DNA of 40,892 nt, from positions 1-40,892 of the forward strand of contig JAKAJN010000013.1 in NCBI GenBank assembly GCA_021813725.1, written 5' to 3'. This document shows, one piece after another, positions 5,460 through 16,352 of the stretch. Made by a program: the position numbers and the translations under genes. The DNA comes from a bacterium (GTDB lineage: Bacteria; Gemmatimonadota; Gemmatimonadetes; Gemmatimonadales; Gemmatimonadaceae). Numbering within the stretch: the first letter of the stretch is position 1; every line of letters begins with the position of its first letter. The notes beneath the pieces were generated by a model that worked only from the letters and a program-made list of their open reading frames with translations, made no database searches and was not told the DNA's origin.

Positions 5460-6098
5460 ATGAACATCGCCGACATGCGCCAGCAGTATTCCACCGTGGG
5501 GATCACTCGCGAGGAGCTGCACGACGATCCGGTGGAGCAGTTCCGCGCCTGGTTCGACCAGGCCTGCCAGTCCGGCCTGCACGAGCCCAACGCCATGTCG
5601 CTCGCCACCGCGTGGCGCGACGGCCGGCCGCTGGTGCGCACGGTCCTGCTCAAGCAGTTCGATGCGCGCGGGTTTGTGTTCTTCACGAACTTCGAGAGCC
5701 GCAAGGCGCAGCAACTCGCCGAAAACCCGCGGGCCGCGCTGCTCTTTCCGTGGGTGGCGCTCGAGCGGCAGGTGATGATCGCGGGGGCGGTGGAGCGCGT
5801 CTCCATCGCGGACGCGACGGCCTACTTCATCACCCGGCCCGTCGGCAGTCAGCTCGCCGCGTGGGCCTCGCCGCAGAGCTCCGTGCTCACGTCGCGGCAG
5901 ATGCTCGAGATGAAATGGGAGGAGATGAAGCGCAAGTTCGCCGACGGCAAGATTCCACTGCCGTCATTCTGGGGCGGCTATCGGGTCATTCCCGAGTCCT
6001 TCGAGTTCTGGCAGGGGCGGGCCAACCGCCTGCACGACCGCTTCCAGTACACACGGGACGGCGACGCGCGCTGGCGCATCGAGCGGCTGGCTCCCTAG
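5460..6098 (+). CDS. pdxH: Pyridoxamine/pyridoxine 5'-phosphate oxidase
   Basis: 212 residues, normal for PdxH, the FMN enzyme that oxidises pyridoxine or pyridoxamine 5'-phosphate to the cofactor PLP. The start at ATG 5460 gives M-N-I-A-D-M-R-Q-Q-Y. FMN-binding blocks R-T-V-L-L-K and F-F-T-N-F-E-S-R-K-A-Q-Q-L are present, and the C-terminal signature E-F-W-Q-G-R-x-x-R-L-H-D-R is complete. Several PLP enzymes in this window (class V aminotransferase, threonine aldolase, HisC-like protein) would depend on this cofactor. The gene is followed by a strong hairpin. Confidence 0.97.
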   Translation: MNIADMRQQYSTVGITREELHDDPVEQFRAWFDQACQSGLHEPNAMSLATAWRDGRPLVRTVLLKQFDARGFVFFTNFESRKAQQLAENPRAALLFPWVALERQVMIAGAVERVSIADATAYFITRPVGSQLAAWASPQSSVLTSRQMLEMKWEEMKRKFADGKIPLPSFWGGYRVIPESFEFWQGRANRLHDRFQYTRDGDARWRIERLAP

Positions 6099-6110
6099 CT
6101 CGACGGACGT

Positions 6111-6142
6111 GCGACGGCGACTCCACGGGGAGTCGCCGTCGC
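6111..6142. terminator. Bidirectional terminator hairpin between pdxH and the NrfJ-like lipoprotein gene
   Basis: Perfect 14-bp inverted repeat (6111-6124 with 6129-6142) around the loop ACGG. It lies between the convergent stops at 6098 (plus) and 6151 (minus). There is no clear T tract on either side, so this is a strong stem of probable termination or 3'-end-protecting function. Confidence 0.75.
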
Positions 6143-6150
6143 CGGAGCGG

Positions 6151-6951
6151 TTACGGCTTCACGATCTTCGCTTCCTCGAGGATCACGGCGTACTTGTACC
6201 CGGCGCCAAAGTCCTTGCTCGTCTTCACCGTGCCGCGCACCGTGATGGTCTGGCCCTTGGCCGTCTCATCCATCGTCGTGACGGTGATGTCGTTGGTGGC
6301 CTTCGCGGCGTCGCCGCTCCCGTCCTGCAGGTGAATCCAGTTCTTCCCCATCACCTGCGGGTTGTACTTCACGACCGTGCCGCGGATGCTGATGGCCTTG
6401 CCGACCAGCGCGTCCTTCTGGGCGAAGGTTTCGGCGATCGTGTACGCACCCGGCCCGGCCGCCTTCTCCACCTTGCCCACCTTGACCGGTTCGCTGGTGG
6501 ACGACGGCATTCCCGCGTGCGGGTTGGCGCCGGCTTCCATCGCGCCGTCGGCTGGCGCCGCTCCGGCGCCATTGACCGCCGCATCCGCGCCATCGGGCGT
6601 CAGCGTGCCGAAGTACACTTCGTCGAAGGTGCGCTTCAGCGCCTTCGACTCGAACTTCGTCATCAGCATCGGGTTGTACACACGGACGTTCGCACCCTTC
6701 GCGATTGACGTCTGCGGCACTGCCGCCCAGACATCGCCCTGCGGCGTCTTGACCTGCAGGTAGGTGTATGGCGGCGCGTCGAGTCTCTCGAGCACCTCGC
6801 CGGCGAGCGCGCCGGCCGGCGGCGCGGCCTCGGCGGCACCCGGCGTCGCGGGCGCCTGACTCAGCGGAACCTTGTCAGTCTCCGCGTTCTTGGAATATGA
6901 ACCGCAGCCGGCGACGACCGTTGCCAGCAGCAGGGAAAGAGCGGAACGCAT
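6151..6951 (-). CDS. NrfJ-like two-domain lipoprotein of the multihaem cluster
   Basis: 266 residues from ATG 6951, which has a good ribosome site (CAGGAG, about 8 nt upstream). The N-terminus is a lipoprotein signal with lipobox V-A-G-C (Cys16), then a low-complexity Ala/Pro linker. Residues ~50-116 (G-E-V-L-E-R-L..., Y-T-Y-L-Q-V-K-T, V-W-A-A-V-P, F-E-S-K-A-L-x-R-T-F-D-E-V-Y-F) resemble NrfJ-type proteins found beside cytochrome c nitrite reductases. Residues ~183-265 form a second OB-fold-like domain (G-T-V-V-K-Y-N..., G-K-N-W-I-H-L-Q-D-G-S-G, I-T-V-R-G-T-V). It lies downstream of the 7-haem cytochrome gene on the same strand. A role in assembling or supporting periplasmic redox proteins is inferred; no catalytic motif is visible. 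Confidence 0.8.
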   Translation of the reverse strand: MRSALSLLLATVVAGCGSYSKNAETDKVPLSQAPATPGAAEAAPPAGALAGEVLERLDAPPYTYLQVKTPQGDVWAAVPQTSIAKGANVRVYNPMLMTKFESKALKRTFDEVYFGTLTPDGADAAVNGAGAAPADGAMEAGANPHAGMPSSTSEPVKVGKVEKAAGPGAYTIAETFAQKDALVGKAISIRGTVVKYNPQVMGKNWIHLQDGSGDAAKATNDITVTTMDETAKGQTITVRGTVKTSKDFGAGYKYAVILEEAKIVKP

Positions 6952-7023
6952 GAACGATACTCCTGAGTTGGTCTTGTTGGCTGCTACGGGTCCTGCTCCC
7001 GGAATGTAACCGGGCACTGCGCG

Positions 7024-7058
7024 GCGGTGGGCGCGCCGGGTGCGGCCGCGCCCACCGC
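7024..7058 (-). terminator. Hairpin between the 7-haem cytochrome gene and the NrfJ-like lipoprotein gene
   Basis: Perfect 12-bp stem (7024-7035 with 7047-7058), 11-nt loop, just downstream of the cytochrome stop (7066-7068) in the minus-strand direction. A smaller stem, CCCGG/CCGGG (6998-7002 with 7010-7014), follows. No T tract, so it may give partial termination or set the ratio of the two gene products. Confidence 0.5.
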
Positions 7059-7065
7059 GTCGCAC

Positions 7066-8664
7066 CTACGGCGCGACGCGATGCCGCGACGACGCGCGCG
7101 CGATGTCGGCCAGCAGGCCGCCGCGCCCCCGCGCCGTCTTCGACTCCGCCTTCTCCGACGACGACGCCGGCGGCGTGTTATGGCAGTCGGCGCACGGCCC
7201 GTCCTGCCAGTCGTTGCCGATGTCCACCGGGTGGATGTACTTGAGCCCCTCGAGCGACGTTTGCATTGGCTTGCCGGCCACCTGCTGGCCGATGATCGAG
7301 TGGCACGTGTTGCAGTCCTTCGTGAGCACCTTGCCGTCCTGGTCGACGTGCTTGCCGTCGTGGCAGCGGAAGCAGCCCAGGAAGTACATGTGCCCAATGT
7401 TGTCCGGGAAGTTCTTCCAGTCGGCCTTCATCGACGGGAAGTAGTTGATCGTGAACAGGTTCTGCGTCTCGGTGATCATCCGCTCGATGGAGGCCTTCTT
7501 GGTCTGCATCAGGGCGGGGAAGTTGGTCTGGTAGTACTCCAGGATCGCGGTGCGAATGCTGTCCTTCGCGATCGCCGTCGAGGAATACGGTTCCTCGAGC
7601 ACGTGCACCGCCAGGTCCTTCGCGCTCGGCAGCGCGGGATCAATCCACCCCAGCGTCATCAGGTGATTGACCATGCGCGACGGGTTGCGATACTGGTGCG
7701 CCGGCCGGTTGTGGCAGTCCACGCAGTCCATCCGCCGCTGTTCGCCAGCCGCCGAATCCTGCGGGGTGAACGCCAATTCGGTGCTCTTGAAAATGCGCAC
7801 GCTGCCGTCCGGCCCCTCCGCGCGCACCCACGGGATCGTCTGCCGCCGATTGTCAGTGGCGATGTATGTCACCTTGTTGCGGATGTTCATGTGCCAGTGG
7901 ATGCCCGAGGTCGGGCCCGCTTCCTTGTTGCCGCCGCCGACCTTGATGAGCAGGTCGATCGTGGACTTCACGTTTTCCTTGCCCACCGACTGAAAGTATG
8001 TCTGCCGCATCAGCTTCTGGCTGAAGAACTGGCTGGGCCAGTGGCACTGCTCGCACGTTTCCTGCGCCGGGCGCAGGTTGTGAATCGGGGTCTCGATGGG
8101 ACGCGGGAATTTGTTGAACGCCACCGAGTAGAGCTGGTAGCTCCCCGACAGCTTCGACTTCACGAACCACCCGGCGCCCGACCCGATGTGGCACTTCACG
8201 CAGCCGACGCGCGCGTGCGGTCCGTTCTGGTACGCCGTGTATTCCGGTTCCATTGGCGTATGGCAGCTTGTGCCGCAGAACTTGTCCGTCTCCATCGCGT
8301 GGTACGCCTGAAAGCTCCCGACGCCCGTCGCGAGCACCAGGAACCCGCCGAGCACCGCCACCGCCGCGATGCCGCCCTGATGCCGCGGGTTCGCAAGGTC
8401 GATCTTCGGGAAGTGGCGTTCCTTGTGCTTGCCCAGCCGGATCAGCCGGTTCTCACGCAGGATGCCGAAAATCGCGATCGCCACGCCGAACAGCAGCACG
8501 CCCGGCACGATGATGTAGGCGAGGACGCCGACGTACGGACTCGGATCCTTGGCCAGCCATTCGTTGATCGCGAGGAATCCGATGATGATGAAGCAGAGCG
8601 TCGTGATGGCGACGCCGAGCAGCGTGATCGGATTCGAGAAGGACTGGGGCAGTTTGGATCGCAT
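7066..8664 (-). CDS. Seven-haem NapC/NirT-type inner-membrane cytochrome c (ImcH-like)
   Basis: 532 residues from ATG 8664 (GGAG about 10 nt upstream). Three hydrophobic segments (~14-34, 43-67, 97-117) anchor it in the inner membrane, followed by a periplasmic haem domain. Seven haem-binding sites are visible. The first is C-G-T-S-C-H at 130-135, a CX3CH motif; the others are CXXCH: C-V-K-C-H, C-E-Q-C-H, C-V-D-C-H, C-F-R-C-H, C-N-T-C-H and C-A-D-C-H. The NapC-like order (E-P-E-Y-T-A-Y-Q-N-G-P-H-A-R-V-G-C...C-E-Q-C-H-W-P) and the three-helix, seven-haem layout match descriptions of Geobacter ImcH, a quinol-oxidising protein. It is transcribed away from the other cytochromes over a shared 276-bp promoter region. 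Quinol oxidation and electron delivery to periplasmic carriers is inferred. Confidence 0.9.
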   Translation of the reverse strand: MRSKLPQSFSNPITLLGVAITTLCFIIIGFLAINEWLAKDPSPYVGVLAYIIVPGVLLFGVAIAIFGILRENRLIRLGKHKERHFPKIDLANPRHQGGIAAVAVLGGFLVLATGVGSFQAYHAMETDKFCGTSCHTPMEPEYTAYQNGPHARVGCVKCHIGSGAGWFVKSKLSGSYQLYSVAFNKFPRPIETPIHNLRPAQETCEQCHWPSQFFSQKLMRQTYFQSVGKENVKSTIDLLIKVGGGNKEAGPTSGIHWHMNIRNKVTYIATDNRRQTIPWVRAEGPDGSVRIFKSTELAFTPQDSAAGEQRRMDCVDCHNRPAHQYRNPSRMVNHLMTLGWIDPALPSAKDLAVHVLEEPYSSTAIAKDSIRTAILEYYQTNFPALMQTKKASIERMITETQNLFTINYFPSMKADWKNFPDNIGHMYFLGCFRCHDGKHVDQDGKVLTKDCNTCHSIIGQQVAGKPMQTSLEGLKYIHPVDIGNDWQDGPCADCHNTPPASSSEKAESKTARGRGGLLADIARASSRHRVAP

Positions 8665-8940
8665 GAGCGGCCGACTCCAGAAGGGTCGCGAAAACACCGA
8701 CGGCTGGATCGGCAATATTGCCTACGCGGCGTCCGTTGCACAGGCAGACACCTCCCCTTTTCGGGGATGGGAGTTTCCCTTGCACGGCCGTCCGGGATTC
8801 CCGTACGTAGAGACCGCATTCTCTGGATTTCACACGGAGGTCCCACGCCCGAGATTTCGTGTCAGCCGAGGGGGGAGCATCCAGAGGCTCGCCGGACTCG
8901 GTTCATCGTTCAACGGCAGGACAGACAAGGGGAGCACTAC
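8665..8940. promoter_or_regulatory. Divergent promoter region of the multihaem cluster, with a 12-bp palindrome
   Basis: 276 bp between the divergent starts of the 7-haem cytochrome (8664) and the c554-like cytochrome (8941). It contains the perfect palindrome GGCAATATTGCC at 8711-8722, a plausible operator for a dimeric regulator about 47 bp upstream of the minus-strand start. A small stem, TCCCC/GGGGA, lies near 8755. No convincing -35/-10 pair could be fixed for either direction, and no coding region is evident. Confidence 0.45.
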
Positions 8941-9471
8941 ATGAAGCGCACGTTTGGTCTACTGGCGATCCTCGCCGCGGCCGTCGTTGTGCCCAACCTC
9001 GCCAGCGCGCAGAGCACGTTCGTCGGCGTGAAGGGCTGCACGATGTGCCACAAGTCGGCCGCCCAGGGGCAACAGCTTGCCATCTGGGAGAAGTCGAAGC
9101 ACGCCGGCGCGTACACCACGCTGACGACGGAGAAGGCAAACGAGATTGCGAAGGCGAAGGGGCTGGCCAAGCCGGCAGCGGAGTCGCCGGAGTGCCTCGA
9201 GTGCCACACGATCAAGGGCGGCCCGGATGCGGCCGACATCAAGCAGGGCGTGCAGTGCGAGAGCTGCCACGGTGCGGGCTCGGCCTACAAGTCCATGGCG
9301 GTGATGAAGGTGAAGGACAATGCCGTGAAGGCGGGCTTGGCGGCGTTCGCCGACGAGGCGGCCATCGAGGCGATGTGCAAGAACTGCCACAACGAGAAGA
9401 GCCCGACCAACAAGCCGTTCAACTTCGCCGAGCGCTGGAAGGAGATCGCGCACAAGAAGCCGGCTGCATAA
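8941..9471 (+). CDS. Tetrahaem cytochrome c554-like periplasmic protein
   Basis: 176 residues with a Sec signal peptide (M-K-R-T-F-G-L-L-A... cleaving near A-S-A-Q). Four CXXCH sites: C-T-M-C-H, C-L-E-C-H, C-E-S-C-H and C-K-N-C-H. The opening F-V-G-V-K-G-C-T-M-C-H-K-S and the segment I-W-E-K-S-K-H-A-G-A-Y are characteristic of the cytochrome c554 family, tetrahaem electron carriers known from nitrifiers and metal reducers. A good Shine-Dalgarno GGGGAG precedes ATG 8941. It heads a three-gene run with gaps of 39 and 31 bp. As the small soluble member it probably shuttles electrons between the large membrane cytochromes and a further acceptor; the partner is inferred. Confidence 0.92.
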   Translation: MKRTFGLLAILAAAVVVPNLASAQSTFVGVKGCTMCHKSAAQGQQLAIWEKSKHAGAYTTLTTEKANEIAKAKGLAKPAAESPECLECHTIKGGPDAADIKQGVQCESCHGAGSAYKSMAVMKVKDNAVKAGLAAFADEAAIEAMCKNCHNEKSPTNKPFNFAERWKEIAHKKPAA

Positions 9472-9510
9472 CCTCCCCCCACTCCGCCCAGCTGAGAGAA
9501 GAGCATCAAC

Positions 9511-11682
9511 ATGATCCGACGCCTGCTTGTCCTGTTCCTCGTGCTCGGAACCTTCACTCAGCTGGGCGCCAAGGCAGCCCTCGCGCAAACGCGCGAGGAC
9601 TGCCTTGCTTGTCACAGTGACTCGACCCTGACCAAGGACGGACCGGGGAAGAAGACCATCTCGCTGTTCGTGCGCGAGCAGGTGCTCAACGGTTCCACGC
9701 ACGCCAAGCTCGCCTGCGTGAGCTGCCACGAGGGATTCAACCCCGAGGAGCTGCCGCACAAGGCCGAGATCGGGCACGTCAACTGCGCGCGCTGCCACGG
9801 CAAGGCGGTGCTCAAGCACCCCTTCCATCCCGAGATCAACCGCGCCGTCTCGCATGGCCAGCTGCCGAAGACGCTCTGCCAGAGTTGCCACGGCACGCAC
9901 AATGTGCAGTCGCCCAAGCAACCGGGCGCACCGTTTTCGAAGGCGCGGCTGACGCAGGACTGTGGTCAGTGTCACCAGAAGGCGGCCGAGCATTTCCCGG
10001 CATCGGCGCACGGCCAGGCGCTGGCCAAGGGAGTGAAGGGCGCGCCGAACTGCCTCACCTGCCACCAGACCACGACCGGTTTCGTGATGGGGCGCGGCGT
10101 CGATTCGCTGACCGTCAAGCTCAACCAGAACAAGCTCTGCTTCGGCTGCCACCTCGACAATCCGGACGTGCGGGCGCGCACGTCGCCCACCGCCGGCTTC
10201 ATCCAGGGCTACGAATCGAGCGTGCACGGCCAGGCGCTCGAGAAGAAGGGGCTCGCTGGCGCCGCCAATTGCGTGAGCTGTCACGGCAGCCACGACATGA
10301 AGCGCGGCTCCGACGCCACGTCCTTCGTCAACCGCCTCAACATCCCGAAGACCTGCGGGACCTGCCACACGAAGGTCGCCGTCCTGTACAAGACGAGCGT
10401 GCACGGCGTCGAGGTGGCGAAGGGGAATGACGATGCGCCGGTCTGCACGTCGTGCCACGGCGAGCACACGATCCTCGGCAAGAAGGATCCCAACTCCCGC
10501 ACGGCTCCCACGAACGTGTCGGCGCAGGTCTGCCAGCCGTGCCATGCGTCGGTGCAGCTCTCGGCCAAGTACGGCCTGCGCAGCGACCGGTTCAAGACGT
10601 TCACCGACAGCTATCACGGCCTCGCGAGCCGCGGCGGATCGCTCTCGGTGGCCAACTGCGCGAGCTGTCACGGCGGCCACGACATCAAGGCGTCATCCGA
10701 TCCGACCTCGACGGTCAACAAGGCCAACCTCAAGGTGACGTGCGGCAAGTGCCATCCCGGCGCGAGCGAACGGTTCGCGCAGGGGTCCGTGCACATCACG
10801 CTGACGCAGGAGCAGGAGCCCATCCTGTACTGGGTGGCGCTGGGCTACGTCATCCTCATCGTCCTGATCATTGGCGGGATGTTGGGGCACAACGTGCTCG
10901 ACTTCGTGAAGAAGTCGAAGCACAACCTCAAGGTGCGCCGCGGGCTCATTGACGCCGAGCACGGCGGCCACACGCTCTACCTGCGCATGTCGCTCAACGA
11001 GCGGCTGCAGCACGCCGCGCTGGTCGTCAGCTTCGTGACGCTCGTGATCACGGGCTTCGCGCTCAAGTTCCCCGAGGCGTGGTGGGTGGCGCCGCTGCAC
11101 CGGAACCTCCCGGGCGTCTTCGACCTGCGCTCGCTGGTGCATCGCATTGCCGGCGTCATCATGCTGGTGGCGAGCGTCTACCACCTGTACTACATCGCCG
11201 TCGTGCCGCGCGGGCGGCAGCTGGTGAAGGATCTGTTCCCCGGGCCGCAGGACCTGGTGGACGCGATCAACGTCGTGAAGTACAACCTGGGGTGGTCGAG
11301 CGAGAAGCCGAAGTTCGGGCGGTTCAGCTACATCGAGAAGAGCGAGTACTGGGCGCTGGTGTGGGGGAACATCGTGATGGGGGCCACGGGCGTCATCCTG
11401 TGGTTCGACAACACGTTCATGAACCTGCTGACCAAGCTCGGCTGGGACATTGCCCGCACCGTGCACTACTACGAAGCCTGGCTGGCGACGCTCGCCATTC
11501 TTGTCTGGCACATCTACTTCGTGGTGTTCAACCCCGACATCTATCCCGTCAACCTCGCCTTCTGGAAGGGCACGCTCACCGAGCGCGAAATGCTCGACGA
11601 GCACCCGCTCGAGCTGGAGCGGCTGCGCGCGCAGGCGGGGGACGACGCGGATGATGACGCACCGGGCGCGACGCCCGCCTAG
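9511..11682 (+). CDS. 13-haem cytochrome c fused to a cytochrome b561-type membrane domain (CbcL-like)
   Basis: 723 residues. A Sec signal peptide (ending A-A-L-A-Q-T) leads into a periplasmic region with 13 CXXCH motifs, the last being C-G-K-C-H at about residue 412. From ~435 to ~690 there are five strongly hydrophobic helices, with histidines at L-Q-H-A-A-L, L-V-H-R-I-A-G, V-Y-H-L-Y-Y and V-W-H-I-Y-F, as in the di-haem b subunits of HydC/FdnI/b561 type. The C-terminus is acidic. Fusion of a multihaem c domain to such a b domain is the architecture of Geobacter CbcL, but with more haems. Proposed job: oxidise menaquinol in the membrane and pass electrons along the haem wire in the periplasm. 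Start ATG 9511 is preceded by the purine-rich GAGAGAAGAG. Confidence 0.9.
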   Translation: MIRRLLVLFLVLGTFTQLGAKAALAQTREDCLACHSDSTLTKDGPGKKTISLFVREQVLNGSTHAKLACVSCHEGFNPEELPHKAEIGHVNCARCHGKAVLKHPFHPEINRAVSHGQLPKTLCQSCHGTHNVQSPKQPGAPFSKARLTQDCGQCHQKAAEHFPASAHGQALAKGVKGAPNCLTCHQTTTGFVMGRGVDSLTVKLNQNKLCFGCHLDNPDVRARTSPTAGFIQGYESSVHGQALEKKGLAGAANCVSCHGSHDMKRGSDATSFVNRLNIPKTCGTCHTKVAVLYKTSVHGVEVAKGNDDAPVCTSCHGEHTILGKKDPNSRTAPTNVSAQVCQPCHASVQLSAKYGLRSDRFKTFTDSYHGLASRGGSLSVANCASCHGGHDIKASSDPTSTVNKANLKVTCGKCHPGASERFAQGSVHITLTQEQEPILYWVALGYVILIVLIIGGMLGHNVLDFVKKSKHNLKVRRGLIDAEHGGHTLYLRMSLNERLQHAALVVSFVTLVITGFALKFPEAWWVAPLHRNLPGVFDLRSLVHRIAGVIMLVASVYHLYYIAVVPRGRQLVKDLFPGPQDLVDAINVVKYNLGWSSEKPKFGRFSYIEKSEYWALVWGNIVMGATGVILWFDNTFMNLLTKLGWDIARTVHYYEAWLATLAILVWHIYFVVFNPDIYPVNLAFWKGTLTEREMLDEHPLELERLRAQAGDDADDDAPGATPA

Positions 11683-11713
11683 CCGAGAGACGACGCCGCA
11701 TGAAGGTCGCGAC

Positions 11714-14506
11714 ATGACCGGGCGGAGCGGCGCGCTGCGCGCCGGCCTCCTCGCGTTCGCCCTGCTGTTCCTGTCGGGAGGCGGCGCGCCGGCGCTCGCG
11801 CAGGGTAACGCCGACTGCCTCGAGTGCCACAGCGACAAGAGCCTCACCAAGAAGCGCGACGGTCGCACGGTCTCGCTCTTCATCGACGCGGCACGCTTCA
11901 ATGCGTCGGTGCACGCCAAGGCGAACTGCACCGACTGCCACGCCGACCTGAAGGGAAAGGACCTTCCGCACGACGAGACGCTGAAGCCGGCGCAGTGCCG
12001 CAGCTGCCACGAGGCGGAGCAGGTGCAGCACGACCAGTCGCTGCACGGGCGCGCCATCGCGCGCGGCGACCCGCTGGCGCCGCGCTGCAGCAGTTGCCAC
12101 GGCACGCACGACATCGTGCGGCGCGCCGACCCGCGGTCGCCCGTGCAGCCGTCGCGCATCCCGTACCTCTGCGGCCGGTGCCACTCGGAGGGCGGACGCG
12201 TCCAGAAGGAACGCGTCATCCACCAGTCGAACATCATCAACAACTACACGGAGTCCATCCACGGCGAGGCCCTGATGACCAAGGGGCTCACCGTCGCGGC
12301 CACGTGCGTCTCGTGCCACACGGCGCACTCGATCCGCAAGCACACGGACCCCAAGTCGTCCATCGCGCGCGCCAACATCGCCGCCACCTGCTCCACCTGC
12401 CATGCCGCCATCGAGACGGTGCACCGCAAGGTCATCGAAGGCCGGCTGTGGGAGCGCGAAACGCACGTCCTGCCGGCCTGCGTGGACTGCCACGAGCCGC
12501 ACAAGGCGCGCCGCGTCTTCTATGACCAGGGCATGGCCGACCGCGACTGCCTGCGCTGTCACGAGCGCGAGGACATCCGGTCGTCCAAGGACGGGCACTC
12601 GCTGCGCGTGCGGCTGGACTCGCTGGGCACCTCGGTGCACGTCAAGATCCGCTGCAGCCAGTGCCACACCGACGTTGCGCCGTCGCATGTGCGCCCGTGC
12701 GAGACGATCAAGTCCAAGGTCAACTGCGCATCGTGCCACGCCGAGGTCGGCGATCAGTACCGGCTGAGCACGCACGGCCAGCTCGAGGCGAAGAACGACC
12801 CGAACGGCCCGAGCTGCAAGCAGTGCCACGGTACGCACGGCGTGCTCGGCAAGGCCAACCCGCAGTCGCCGATCTTCCCGACGCAGATTCCCACCCTCTG
12901 CGGGCGCTGCCATCGCACCGGCGAGAAGGCGGCGCGGCTCTACACGGGCACCGAAACCAAGATCGTCGAGAACTACACCGAGAGCATCCACGGCAAGGGG
13001 CTGCTGGAGAGCGGCCTCGTCGTCACCGCCACCTGCACGTCCTGCCACACGGCGCACAGCGTGCTGCCGCACGACAGCACGACGTCAAGCGTCAACCGCC
13101 ACAACCTGCCGCAGACCTGCGGGCGATGCCACGAGGGAATCGCCAAGCAATTCGCCCGCAGCGTGCACTCGGAACTGGTCACGCAGACCGACAAGAAGCT
13201 CCCGGTGTGCGAAGACTGCCACTCGGCGCACCGCATCGGCCGCACCGACGCCGAGGGGTTCAAGCTCAAGATCATGGGCCAGTGCGGCTCGTGCCACGAG
13301 GCGATCGCCGAGTCGTACTTCGACACGTACCACGGCAAGGTGTCGCGACTCGGCTACACCAAGACCGCGCAGTGCTACGACTGCCACGGCTCGCACGACA
13401 TCCTGCGCGTCGCCGACGTCCGCTCGAAGCTGAGCCGACAGAACGTCGTGCAGACCTGCCAGAAATGCCATCCCGGCGCCAACCGGCGCTTCGCCGGCTA
13501 CCTGACGCACGTCACGCACCACGACCTGTCCAAGTATCCGGTGCTGTTCTGGGTCTTCTGGGGGATGACCGCGCTCCTCGTGGTCACGTTCACCGTGGGC
13601 GGCGCGCACACGCTGATGTGGCTGCCGCGTGCCCTGCAGATGCGCCAGGAGTTCGGGCGGCATCCGCCGGCCAGGGAAGGGGAGCTCGAGTACGAGCGGT
13701 TTACCCGCCTCAATCGCGTGCTGCACATCGCGATGATCGTGAGCTTCATCAGCCTCGCACTCACCGGGATGACGCTCAAGTTCTCGTACACACGCTGGGC
13801 GTCGGTGGTCTCGCACGTCCTCGGCGGCTTCGAGTCGGCCGGCTTCATCCACCGCTTCGCCGCGGTCATCATGGTGGCCGTCTTCATCACGCACGTGGTG
13901 GACGTGATCAAGCGCAAGCGGCGCGACAAGACGACGTGGAAGGACCTCGTGTTCGGCCCGGGCTCGATGATGTTCAACAAGCGCGACCTCAACGAGCTCA
14001 TCGGGTCGGTGAAGTGGTTCCTCGGCAAGGGGAAGCGCCCCACCTACGGCCGGTGGACCTACTGGGAGAAGTTCGACTACTTCGCCGTGTTCTGGGGCAT
14101 CTTCGTGATCGGGTCCACCGGACTCACGCTCTGGTTCCCGACCTTCTTCTCGCGCTTTCTGCCGGGCTGGTTCATCAACGTCGCCACCATCGTGCACAGC
14201 GACGAAGCGCTGCTGGCCACGGGCTTCATCTTCACCATCCACTTCTTCAACACGCACCTGCGTCCCGAGAAGTTCCCGATGGATCTCGTGGTCTTCACCG
14301 GCCGGATGACGGTGGACGAGCTGAAGCACGACAAGCCCGACGAGTACGAGGCGTTGGTGGAGAAGGGGACGCTCGAGGAGCATCTCGTCGTGCCGTACCA
14401 GCCCATTGTCATCCGCGCCATCCGGTTCTTTGCGTGGACGGCCCTGGCGCTGGGGACGATGATCGTGCTGTGGATTCTCTACGCGATGATCTTCTCCTAC
14501 GCGTAG
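11714..14506 (+). CDS. 19-haem cytochrome c fused to a cytochrome b561-type membrane domain
   Basis: 930 residues from ATG 11714 (GAAGG 8 nt upstream). A Sec signal peptide (ending A-P-A-L-A-Q) is followed by 19 CXXCH motifs over ~560 residues, then a membrane domain (~600-875) with b-haem-type histidines (V-L-H-I-A-M, F-I-H-R-F-A, F-I-T-H-V-V, T-I-H-F-F) and an extra C-terminal helix. Haem sites 1-8 and 9-16 form two copies of one module: five matched sites (haems 3/11, 4/12, 8/16 and the shared Y-T-E-S-I-H-G segment among them) lie exactly 729 nt apart. Its last two haem segments and membrane domain are clearly homologous to the 13-haem protein upstream, so the pair are paralogues. Probably a quinol-linked electron conduit; acceptor unknown. 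Confidence 0.9.
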   Translation: MTGRSGALRAGLLAFALLFLSGGGAPALAQGNADCLECHSDKSLTKKRDGRTVSLFIDAARFNASVHAKANCTDCHADLKGKDLPHDETLKPAQCRSCHEAEQVQHDQSLHGRAIARGDPLAPRCSSCHGTHDIVRRADPRSPVQPSRIPYLCGRCHSEGGRVQKERVIHQSNIINNYTESIHGEALMTKGLTVAATCVSCHTAHSIRKHTDPKSSIARANIAATCSTCHAAIETVHRKVIEGRLWERETHVLPACVDCHEPHKARRVFYDQGMADRDCLRCHEREDIRSSKDGHSLRVRLDSLGTSVHVKIRCSQCHTDVAPSHVRPCETIKSKVNCASCHAEVGDQYRLSTHGQLEAKNDPNGPSCKQCHGTHGVLGKANPQSPIFPTQIPTLCGRCHRTGEKAARLYTGTETKIVENYTESIHGKGLLESGLVVTATCTSCHTAHSVLPHDSTTSSVNRHNLPQTCGRCHEGIAKQFARSVHSELVTQTDKKLPVCEDCHSAHRIGRTDAEGFKLKIMGQCGSCHEAIAESYFDTYHGKVSRLGYTKTAQCYDCHGSHDILRVADVRSKLSRQNVVQTCQKCHPGANRRFAGYLTHVTHHDLSKYPVLFWVFWGMTALLVVTFTVGGAHTLMWLPRALQMRQEFGRHPPAREGELEYERFTRLNRVLHIAMIVSFISLALTGMTLKFSYTRWASVVSHVLGGFESAGFIHRFAAVIMVAVFITHVVDVIKRKRRDKTTWKDLVFGPGSMMFNKRDLNELIGSVKWFLGKGKRPTYGRWTYWEKFDYFAVFWGIFVIGSTGLTLWFPTFFSRFLPGWFINVATIVHSDEALLATGFIFTIHFFNTHLRPEKFPMDLVVFTGRMTVDELKHDKPDEYEALVEKGTLEEHLVVPYQPIVIRAIRFFAWTALALGTMIVLWILYAMIFSYA

Positions 14507-14517
14507 CGGCTGAAAAG

Positions 14518-14558
14518 CTCGTCGCCCGACGGCACCACCCCGCGCGCCAGACGACGAG
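14518..14558. terminator. Weak hairpin between the cytochrome operon and the rhomboid gene
   Basis: A 7-bp inverted repeat (14518-14524 with 14552-14558) with a 27-nt GC-rich loop lies between the convergent stops at 14506 and 14577. It is the only candidate termination structure seen here and is weak. Confidence 0.3.
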
Positions 14559-14576
14559 GGGGCCCGTCGCTACACG

Positions 14577-15350
14577 CTAGGCGACCGGCGGCACCCGGTC
14601 GTCGGGCGGCACAAAGTGCATCAGGAACTGCCGTTCCTGCACCGTCAGGCTGCCGATTCCCTGCGCGCTGATCTTGTCGAGGATGCGGTTCACCTCGTCG
14701 CGGTTGAGCTCGTGCACCTTGGACACGTCCACCCGCTGGAACGCGCCGATCGATCCGACCACCCGCCCGCCGCCCTCGGCCTGCTTCTTGAAGCGCGTGG
14801 CGCTCGATCCCCAGCGAATGAGCTTGAGGTAGACGAACGCGCCGGCGTAGCCGCCGAGGTGCGCAAAGTCCGCCGCGCCGCCGCGCGACCCGCCCATGCC
14901 GCTCCAGATGGCGAGCACTGTCGTGATGACCACCAGCCAGCGCGCCTCGAGCGGGAGGATCCCCCAGATGTAGATCTGCTCGCGCGGCCAGAAGTGCGCG
15001 AAGGCGAGCATGATGCCGAAGATGCCGGCCGATGCGCCGATGACGCCGGCGTACGGGGCGAAGGCGAACGACAGCAGCGCGCCACTGATCCCCGACACGA
15101 AGTAGAGCGTGATGAACCGGCGCGAGCCGAGCATCGCCTCGATGCGCGGGCCGAAGAAATAGAGCCCGAGCATGTTGAAGAGGATGTGCGAGAACCCGCC
15201 GTGCAGGAACATGTACGTGACAATCGTCCACGGCCGCGAGAGGATGAGCATGGGCACGAAGACGAACGGCTCCGCCAGCCCCGGCGCCATGAGCTGCACG
15301 AAGAAGACCAGGACATTGGCGATGAGCAGGCGCTGGACCCACGGCGTCAC
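14577..15350 (-). CDS. Rhomboid-family intramembrane serine protease
   Basis: 257 residues with six hydrophobic segments. The catalytic serine is in G-A-S-A-G (Ser107) and the catalytic histidine in D-F-A-H-L-G-G-Y (His164). The family segment H-G-G-F-S-H-I-L-F-N-M (~50-60) is intact. Rhomboids cleave transmembrane helices within the bilayer. A soluble C-terminal tail (~190-257: V-N-R-I-L-D-K-I-S-A-Q-G-I-G-S-L-T) is shared with a subset of bacterial rhomboids and is probably cytoplasmic. The substrate is unknown. It converges on the cytochrome operon without an evident functional link. Confidence 0.93.
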   Translation of the reverse strand: MTPWVQRLLIANVLVFFVQLMAPGLAEPFVFVPMLILSRPWTIVTYMFLHGGFSHILFNMLGLYFFGPRIEAMLGSRRFITLYFVSGISGALLSFAFAPYAGVIGASAGIFGIMLAFAHFWPREQIYIWGILPLEARWLVVITTVLAIWSGMGGSRGGAADFAHLGGYAGAFVYLKLIRWGSSATRFKKQAEGGGRVVGSIGAFQRVDVSKVHELNRDEVNRILDKISAQGIGSLTVQERQFLMHFVPPDDRVPPVA

Positions 15351-15473
15351 GACGATGCTCCTCCTCCGACCGTCCGGCGCGCTCGCCGGCGTCGGAGGAA
15401 ACGTCTAAGGTTAGGGTGGCCGCACGCTGGGCCGACCGCGATCACACGAACTCTACCTGAACGAGACAACGAT

Positions 15474-16352
15474 ATGAAGTTCCTGCACGTCCTTGCCGTG
15501 CTGGGGATTGCCACGCCGATCGCCGGGCTGGCGGGGCAGTCTGCCCCGCGGCCGCACCCGGCGGCCGCGTCCAGCGCCGCGCCGTCCCGGCCCACCGCGC
15601 CCCCCGGCTGGGTGCTCGTCTGGCAGGACGAGTTCAACGGGCGCGCCCTCGACACCACCAAATGGAACGTCCTGTTGCGCGAGCAGAGCAAGCACGACGA
15701 ACTGCAGTACTACCTCCCCGACGAGGTCTATCTCGAACGCGGCGCCCTGCGCATCCGCAGCCAGGCGCGCACATACGGCAGCATGAAGTACACCAGCGGC
15801 CGCCTCGACACGCGGGGCAAGTTCACGCCGGTCTACGGGCGCTTCGAAATCCGCGCCAGGCTCCCCGTCGGCAAGGGGCTGTGGCCGGCTCACTGGTTGT
15901 ACCCGCAGAATCGCAACTGGGCCATGGAAGCGTTGATGCAGCGCGAAGTCGCGGAGGGGCGCGAGCGCTTCATTCCCGAGGAACGCCCGTGGTACAGCGA
16001 GATTGACATCATGGAGTACCTCGGGCACGAGCCGAACGTGCTGTACGGCACCCTGCACTACACGACGTTCAAGGGCGAAAAGAAGTCCACGTCGGGGACG
16101 TGGCGTGGTCCGGTGGACTACTCGGCGGACTATCATCTCTATGCGCTCGAGTGGGAGCCCGACTCAATTCGCTGGTACATCGACGGCAACCTGATCCACG
16201 CCACGACGACCGGCATTCCGCACACACCCCACTACCTGATTCTCAACACGGCGGTCGGGGGCGGCTGGCCGGGGAACCCGGATTCGACGACGGCGTTTCC
16301 GCAGTATCACGATGTGGATTACGTGCGGGTGTACAGGAGGGGTGGGCGCTAG
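15474..16352 (+). CDS. Secreted glycoside hydrolase family 16 (beta-glucanase/laminarinase-like)
   Basis: 292 residues from ATG 15474. A signal peptide (~1-21) is followed by an Ala/Pro linker, then a GH16 jelly-roll domain from W-V-L-V-W-Q-D-E-F-N-G (~46). The catalytic motif E-x-D-x-x-E is present as E-I-D-I-M-E (nucleophile E176, Asp178, acid/base E181). The substrate-cleft residues L-W-P-A-H-W-L and the C-terminal V-D-Y-V-R-V-Y strand are typical. Between H-W-L-Y-P (~143) and the catalytic strand there is an insertion of about 30 charged residues, longer than in simple laminarinases, which may reshape the cleft. GH16 enzymes cut beta-1,3/1,4-glucans or galactans; the exact substrate cannot be told. 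Confidence 0.92.
   Translation: MKFLHVLAVLGIATPIAGLAGQSAPRPHPAAASSAAPSRPTAPPGWVLVWQDEFNGRALDTTKWNVLLREQSKHDELQYYLPDEVYLERGALRIRSQARTYGSMKYTSGRLDTRGKFTPVYGRFEIRARLPVGKGLWPAHWLYPQNRNWAMEALMQREVAEGRERFIPEERPWYSEIDIMEYLGHEPNVLYGTLHYTTFKGEKKSTSGTWRGPVDYSADYHLYALEWEPDSIRWYIDGNLIHATTTGIPHTPHYLILNTAVGGGWPGNPDSTTAFPQYHDVDYVRVYRRGGR

Follow-up and report, generated by a model that had tools for sequence, protein, structure and literature searches.

The closest described relatives of the cytochromes treated here are known from metal-breathing bacteria. ImcH of Geobacter sulfurreducens comprises about 500 amino acids (aa) with three N-terminal transmembrane (TM) helices, an adjoining CX3CH haem motif and six CX2CH motifs, and the CbcL/MtrH/MtoC proteins combine an N-terminal multihaem c domain with a C-terminal FdnI/HydC-like di-haem b domain (PMC6295460; for this and the other papers cited, statements refer to the part of the text used here). 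In the same survey, ImcH homologues were counted in Gemmatimonadetes (2) and Ignavibacteriae (3), and CbcL/MtrH/MtoC homologues with 3-23 haems in 15 phyla, including Gemmatimonadetes (1) and Ignavibacteriae (2). In the window analysed here, a 40.9-kb stretch of contig C33 from a Gemmatimonadota genome (3.0 Mb, 237 contigs, 94.5% complete), both kinds stand in one locus of five genes, A to E. Since homologues of both had already been counted (PMC6295460), the components are of known kinds; their arrangement is new, and the module they form is real and conserved. It probably forms the inner-membrane and periplasmic side of a chain for extracellular electron transfer, in which electrons would flow outward from quinol to MtrAB-type conduits. 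That the module links quinone and outer membrane, in whichever direction, is assumed with considerable confidence.

Gene B (7066..8664, minus strand) encodes 532 aa with a NapC/NirT domain (Pfam, 48 bits; cut-off 24.1) and is a predicted quinol dehydrogenase. Hydrophobic segments at residues 15-33, 51-69 and 97-115 correspond to the three N-terminal TM helices by which ImcH was defined (PMC6295460), and the CX3CH motif (CGTSCH) at residue 130 lies beside the membrane part and is joined by six CX2CH motifs. In an alignment of 19 rows, the CX3CH motif was present in all and the six CX2CH motifs in 18. B is thus supported as ImcH-like by those published sequence features that could be checked, the likening being made by description and not to a Geobacter sequence; the published definition also holds an identity criterion of 31.5-49% to Geobacter-group ImcH (PMC6295460). 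In contrast to ImcH, B is divergently paired with C, D and E.

Gene D (9511..11682, plus strand, 723 aa) comprises a signal peptide, a c domain with 13 CXXCH motifs and a b domain matching cytochrome b561 (PF01292) with 69.7 bits (cut-off 30.1). Besides the signal peptide five TM helices are predicted, compared to about six in the description of CbcL/MtrH/MtoC. Its paralogue E (11714..14506, plus strand, 930 aa, 30% identical to D) carries 19 CXXCH motifs and a b domain just under the same cut-off (27.9 bits), as well as a further TM helix at its C terminus; apart from the signal peptide, five hydrophobic segments and one more polar, His-carrying helix were counted. All gene coordinates refer to the likely starts; the mechanical reading frame of E from 11450 would overlap D. 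Both c domains lie within the described range of 3-23 CX2CH motifs, and the FdnI/HydC-like b domains hold conserved His ligands, the lack of which the original prediction had named as a ground for giving up its reading. The CbcL/MtrH/MtoC-like nature of D and E is therefore supported, and the di-haem b domain of D is of FdnI/HyaC type, likeness again being judged by description and not by comparison with a Geobacter sequence. The difference lies in the tandem of paralogues and in their size, as CbcL carries nine c haems (PMC9129911) compared to 13 and 19. A plasmid search in connection with CbcL gave one weak match only, confined to the b domain.

Gene C (8941..9471, plus strand, 176 aa) encodes a c554-like tetrahaem cytochrome (Pfam Cytochrome_C554, 39.2 bits; cut-off 20.8), whose N-terminal hydrophobic segment is taken as a signal peptide; the Pfam and NCBIfam searches used residues 57-176 only, which leaves out the first haem. 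Among 15 aligned rows just two non-haem His are conserved for four haems; one or more of the haems may therefore be open or have ligands other than two His. The rows of the B and C alignments were chosen by hand, not every relative from a cut locus being included.

Altogether, B (six CXXCH and one CXXXCH), C (four), D and E comprise 43 haem-c motifs, 42 CXXCH and one CXXXCH. The original prediction of 43 sites in a five-gene island, with a 7-haem NapC-type protein, a c554-like tetrahaem protein and two giant c/b fusions, is borne out by these counts and the Pfam scores. Since only three further CXXCH motifs (19144, 28999 and 25771) occur in the six frames of the window, a chance origin of the cluster is excluded. 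A and B are read leftward and C-D-E rightward, with gaps of 39 bp between C and D and 31 bp between D and E. No sigma-54-like site was found at up to two mismatches in the divergent intergenic region between B and C (8665..8940, 276 bp, belonging to neither strand).

Gene A (6151..6951, minus strand) encodes a 266-aa lipoprotein, as read from its lipobox, with an OB-fold-like C-terminal part. It showed no match in NCBIfam and only sub-threshold OB-fold matches in Pfam (PF16100/PF01336), so the earlier label "NrfJ-like" is unsupported. In some relatives (L036 5808-7493, likewise L038, L041 and L052) a gene for a hydrophobic membrane protein, with a weak DUF2339 match in L036, stands between A and B or beside B; it is missing from the window.

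A scan of Genome Taxonomy Database (GTDB) genomes with D gave 30 loci. The D protein of the nearest named relatives is 87% identical, and the tree also places the genome in Gemmatimonadota. All eight Gemmatimonadota loci contain B, C, D and E (in two, the contig ends within E) and seven of them A, so that the neighbourhood search proposed earlier returned a conserved unit. For D, the alignment combined the window with 20 of these 30 loci (L048, L056 and L058-L065 were omitted as cut or more distant). E was first aligned in 16 rows and then, for folding, in 14, the incomplete L038 and L049 being dropped. In Ignavibacteria, the 19-haem part and the b domain of E are encoded by separate genes (L043, L045 and L055; L044 and L049 are cut). 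Outside the Gemmatimonadota loci, B lies near D in L043, L046, L047, L054, L055, L057 and L061. In the last of these, from Kapabacteria, a b561 domain (PF01292, E 5e-26) is fused to an ImcH-like heptahaem protein (NapC/NirT, E 9e-10; 11443-13638), and its neighbour D, with 13 haems, gave no b-domain match. D relatives in Calditrichia (L054, L057) and Ignavibacteria (L060, L062) stand near an 11-12-haem protein, a 6-7-haem protein and a protein of 392-435 aa; the latter would be a barrel, and two copies tested with Pfam gave no match. Downstream of D-type genes, 17-haem proteins with an N-terminal membrane helix, NapC-like by eye, were seen in L058 (12573-14609), L060 (12577-14646) and L062 (12647-14707).

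The original prediction had noted no porin-cytochrome in the window and had left the acceptor open. Indeed, no MtrAB-type conduit was found in the window; since such conduits exist outside it, the acceptor side is not wholly open. As in the MtrAB/PioAB/MtoAB systems, decahaem MtrA and an MtrB/PioB barrel are encoded in the same genome, where contig C36 carries two tandem pairs (L087 4936-12090). Their MtrB/PioB proteins match PF11854 far above the Pfam cut-off (E 1.3e-72 and 6.9e-70), as does the MtrB of the G016 locus described below, and the DmsE-family cut-off is exceeded by the MtrA tested. In G279 (contig C12) and G284 (contig C114), too, a single contig carries MtrB at two places. In G016, from a sister genus, one stretch of 11 kb holds a B-like gene, a lipoprotein gene, MtrB, MtrA, C, D and E, and continues with genes for a Rieske protein, a cytochrome b with c domain and a monohaem cytochrome c. 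This differs from the ImcH survey, in the consulted part of which no mtrAB was adjacent to imcH (PMC6295460); MtrCAB from Gemmatimonadetes was reported as a singleton (PMC8805035). In G062, MtrB-MtrA adjoins genes resembling the same Rieske, cytochrome b and monohaem c genes by position and likeness. Rieske, cytochrome b and monohaem c genes of this kind, near the MtrAB region, were located at L095 16703-19168 and L096 4272-6680, with Pfam applied in L095 only.

The physical link is accompanied by co-occurrence. Among the 179 genomes of the family sample, D/E were found in 16 and MtrB in 27, and both in 13 compared to 2.4 expected; outside the own genus, MtrB occurred in four of the seven D/E genomes compared to 0.67 expected. 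Several observations weigh against a conduit as the partner of the module. The MtrB proteins tested remain under the NCBIfam TIGR03509 cut-off (153.5 and 178.4 compared to 240.05 bits), the B-like gene of G016 is only 41% identical to B, and its lipoprotein is not a clear homologue of A (BLAST E 0.019). No surface MtrC-type cytochrome was noticed, no search aimed at MtrC having been made. Moreover, D/E and MtrB share a contig only in G016 of the 13 family genomes with both; the own genome and eight further D genomes of its genus carry them on different contigs, and the p-values given here ignore relatedness. Since MtrB is absent from three of the 16 D/E genomes of the family (G092, G129 and G180) and, in the phylum sample of 200 genomes, from 23 of the 31 with D/E, MtrAB cannot be the general partner.

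That D, E and B might serve as a membrane redox store or exchange hub, balancing the redox state of the quinones with several periplasmic partners and having no dedicated extracellular role, would fit the wide spread of the module with varied neighbours, including those 23 genomes. The family-level link to MtrB, the adjacency in G016 and the occurrence of conduit-like genes close to relatives from two further phyla argue against it, and it is considered very improbable.

In the outward chain proposed here, quinol oxidation at the membrane would fall to B together with the di-haem b domains of D and E, and the electrons would run along the largely bis-histidine c-haem chains of B, D (13) and E (19). 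Tetrahaem C may act as a shuttle, docking on MtrA and handing the electrons over, and the exit would be through MtrA-MtrB/PioB conduits, whose genes lie on another contig here and inside the locus in the sister genus. Extracellular Fe(III), Mn or humics would be the acceptors. Of this picture, the analysis shows the layout of the genes, the conservation of haems and ligands, the fold of the b domain of D, the adjacency to MtrAB in G016 and the co-occurrence with MtrB; the reaction with quinones, the path of the electrons through C to MtrA, the docking and the outward direction are inferred from these.

The same components could also work inward, Fe(II) or some other donor outside the cell feeding MtrAB in the manner of Mto or Pio, the b domains of D and E reducing the quinone pool and oxidases taking the rest. 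In contrast to MtrAB systems with MtrC, no MtrC-like gene was noticed beside the pairs found here, a layout that we take to resemble Mto and Pio. The Rieske and cytochrome b genes close to the conduit in G016, and those in G062 recognised by position and likeness, would suit this direction, as would the oxidases present in the own genome. The implication of CbcL/MtrH/MtoC homologues in both directions (PMC6295460) also counts against a strictly outward path. RuBisCO was not found in the own 94.5%-complete genome, other carbon-fixation routes not having been searched. Taken together with the oxidases, this fits an iron-oxidising autotroph less well than a facultative heterotroph with extracellular acceptors, which is not decisive. 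Outward flow is thus regarded as likelier, and inward flow as a rather unlikely alternative.

A periplasmic acceptor has to be weighed as well. The island could feed a reductase such as NrfA in ammonia-forming nitrite reduction, with B in the place of NrfH and C as a shuttle or, in view of its possibly open haem, as the reductase itself. NrfA is encoded on contig C142 of the own genome (E 1.9e-132; L088 2-1234, cut at the contig start), B is the sole NapC/NirT (PF03264) match of this genome, and its best NCBIfam match is NrfH (46.5 bits). In the family, NrfA was found in 18 genomes, six of which are among the 16 with D/E compared to 1.6 expected (p 0.002), a further point against a conduit as the partner. 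Like NrfH, B is a NapC/NirT-type membrane cytochrome; it is longer, carries seven haems and lies far under the NrfH cut-off of 134.2 bits. All six overlaps belong to the own genus, whose four other, NrfA-negative members include three with D/E (G115, G282 and G284). Outside the genus, none of seven D/E genomes holds NrfA (0.46 expected, a weak test), and 12 of the 18 NrfA genomes lack D/E. Since C142 begins inside the NrfA gene, an NrfH may have been missed. On balance, a nitrite-reducing role for the island appears improbable.

The original prediction had read the locus as packing ImcH and CbcL types and a c554-like shuttle into one unit that probably links menaquinol to a periplasmic or extracellular acceptor. 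The type features of B, D and E, the conduits in the own genome and in the G016 locus, and the conduit-like genes beside relatives in other phyla agree with this. The pairing itself is not unprecedented, since Desulfuromonas acetexigens, which holds ImcH, CbcL and MtrCAB in one organism, expresses homologues of ImcH and CbcL with consecutive protein numbers when an electrode is the acceptor (PMC12133095). A giant CbcL pair and a c554-like tetrahaem protein are not mentioned in the part of that paper used here. In the phylum sample, D/E-like proteins were found in 31 genomes (E<=1e-40) and B in 11 (E<=1e-20), each of which also has D/E, in some cases on a different contig. Because D/E accompany B in all of these genomes, and because the b561-ImcH fusion of L061 leaves the 13-haem part separate, B, D and E may tentatively be read as subunits of one quinol dehydrogenase complex docking via C on MtrAB, with more than 40 haems before the conduit, instead of alternative potential-specific routes; we consider this doubtful.

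No further cytochromes were found among the 20 other reading frames of the window that were tested. They include genes for a PdxH-like oxidase, a rhomboid protein, an S-adenosylhomocysteine hydrolase, an amidohydrolase and sugar-metabolism enzymes, some frames being without a match. The G+C content of the island (6001-16000) is 64-67% compared to 66-73% in the other 2-kb steps, a mild difference. Elsewhere in the genome, contig C49 (L090 5452-7431) encodes an 11-haem protein resembling ExtM (224.6 bits; cut-off 800), beside genes that by eye resemble those for an NrfD-type membrane protein and an iron-sulfur subunit. Contig C45 (L092 6120-7244) encodes a protein of 374 aa with 13 CXXCH motifs and a sub-threshold HmcA match, and after it a 624-aa protein.

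In the open-access literature, preprints not being covered, no description was found of a conserved unit of ImcH, tetrahaem protein and paired giant CbcL proteins, of its place beside MtrAB or of a b561-ImcH fusion. What is known of extracellular electron transfer comes mostly from proteobacterial and Geobacter-like models. The locus adds a quinone-side module that is conserved and differently arranged in Gemmatimonadota, has relatives in Ignavibacteriota and Calditrichota, and is linked to outer-membrane conduits through co-occurrence and, in one genome, through gene order. With it, one can test whether ImcH and CbcL types are able to act in a single complex, and it supplies gene markers for extracellular electron transfer in lineages less commonly credited with it.

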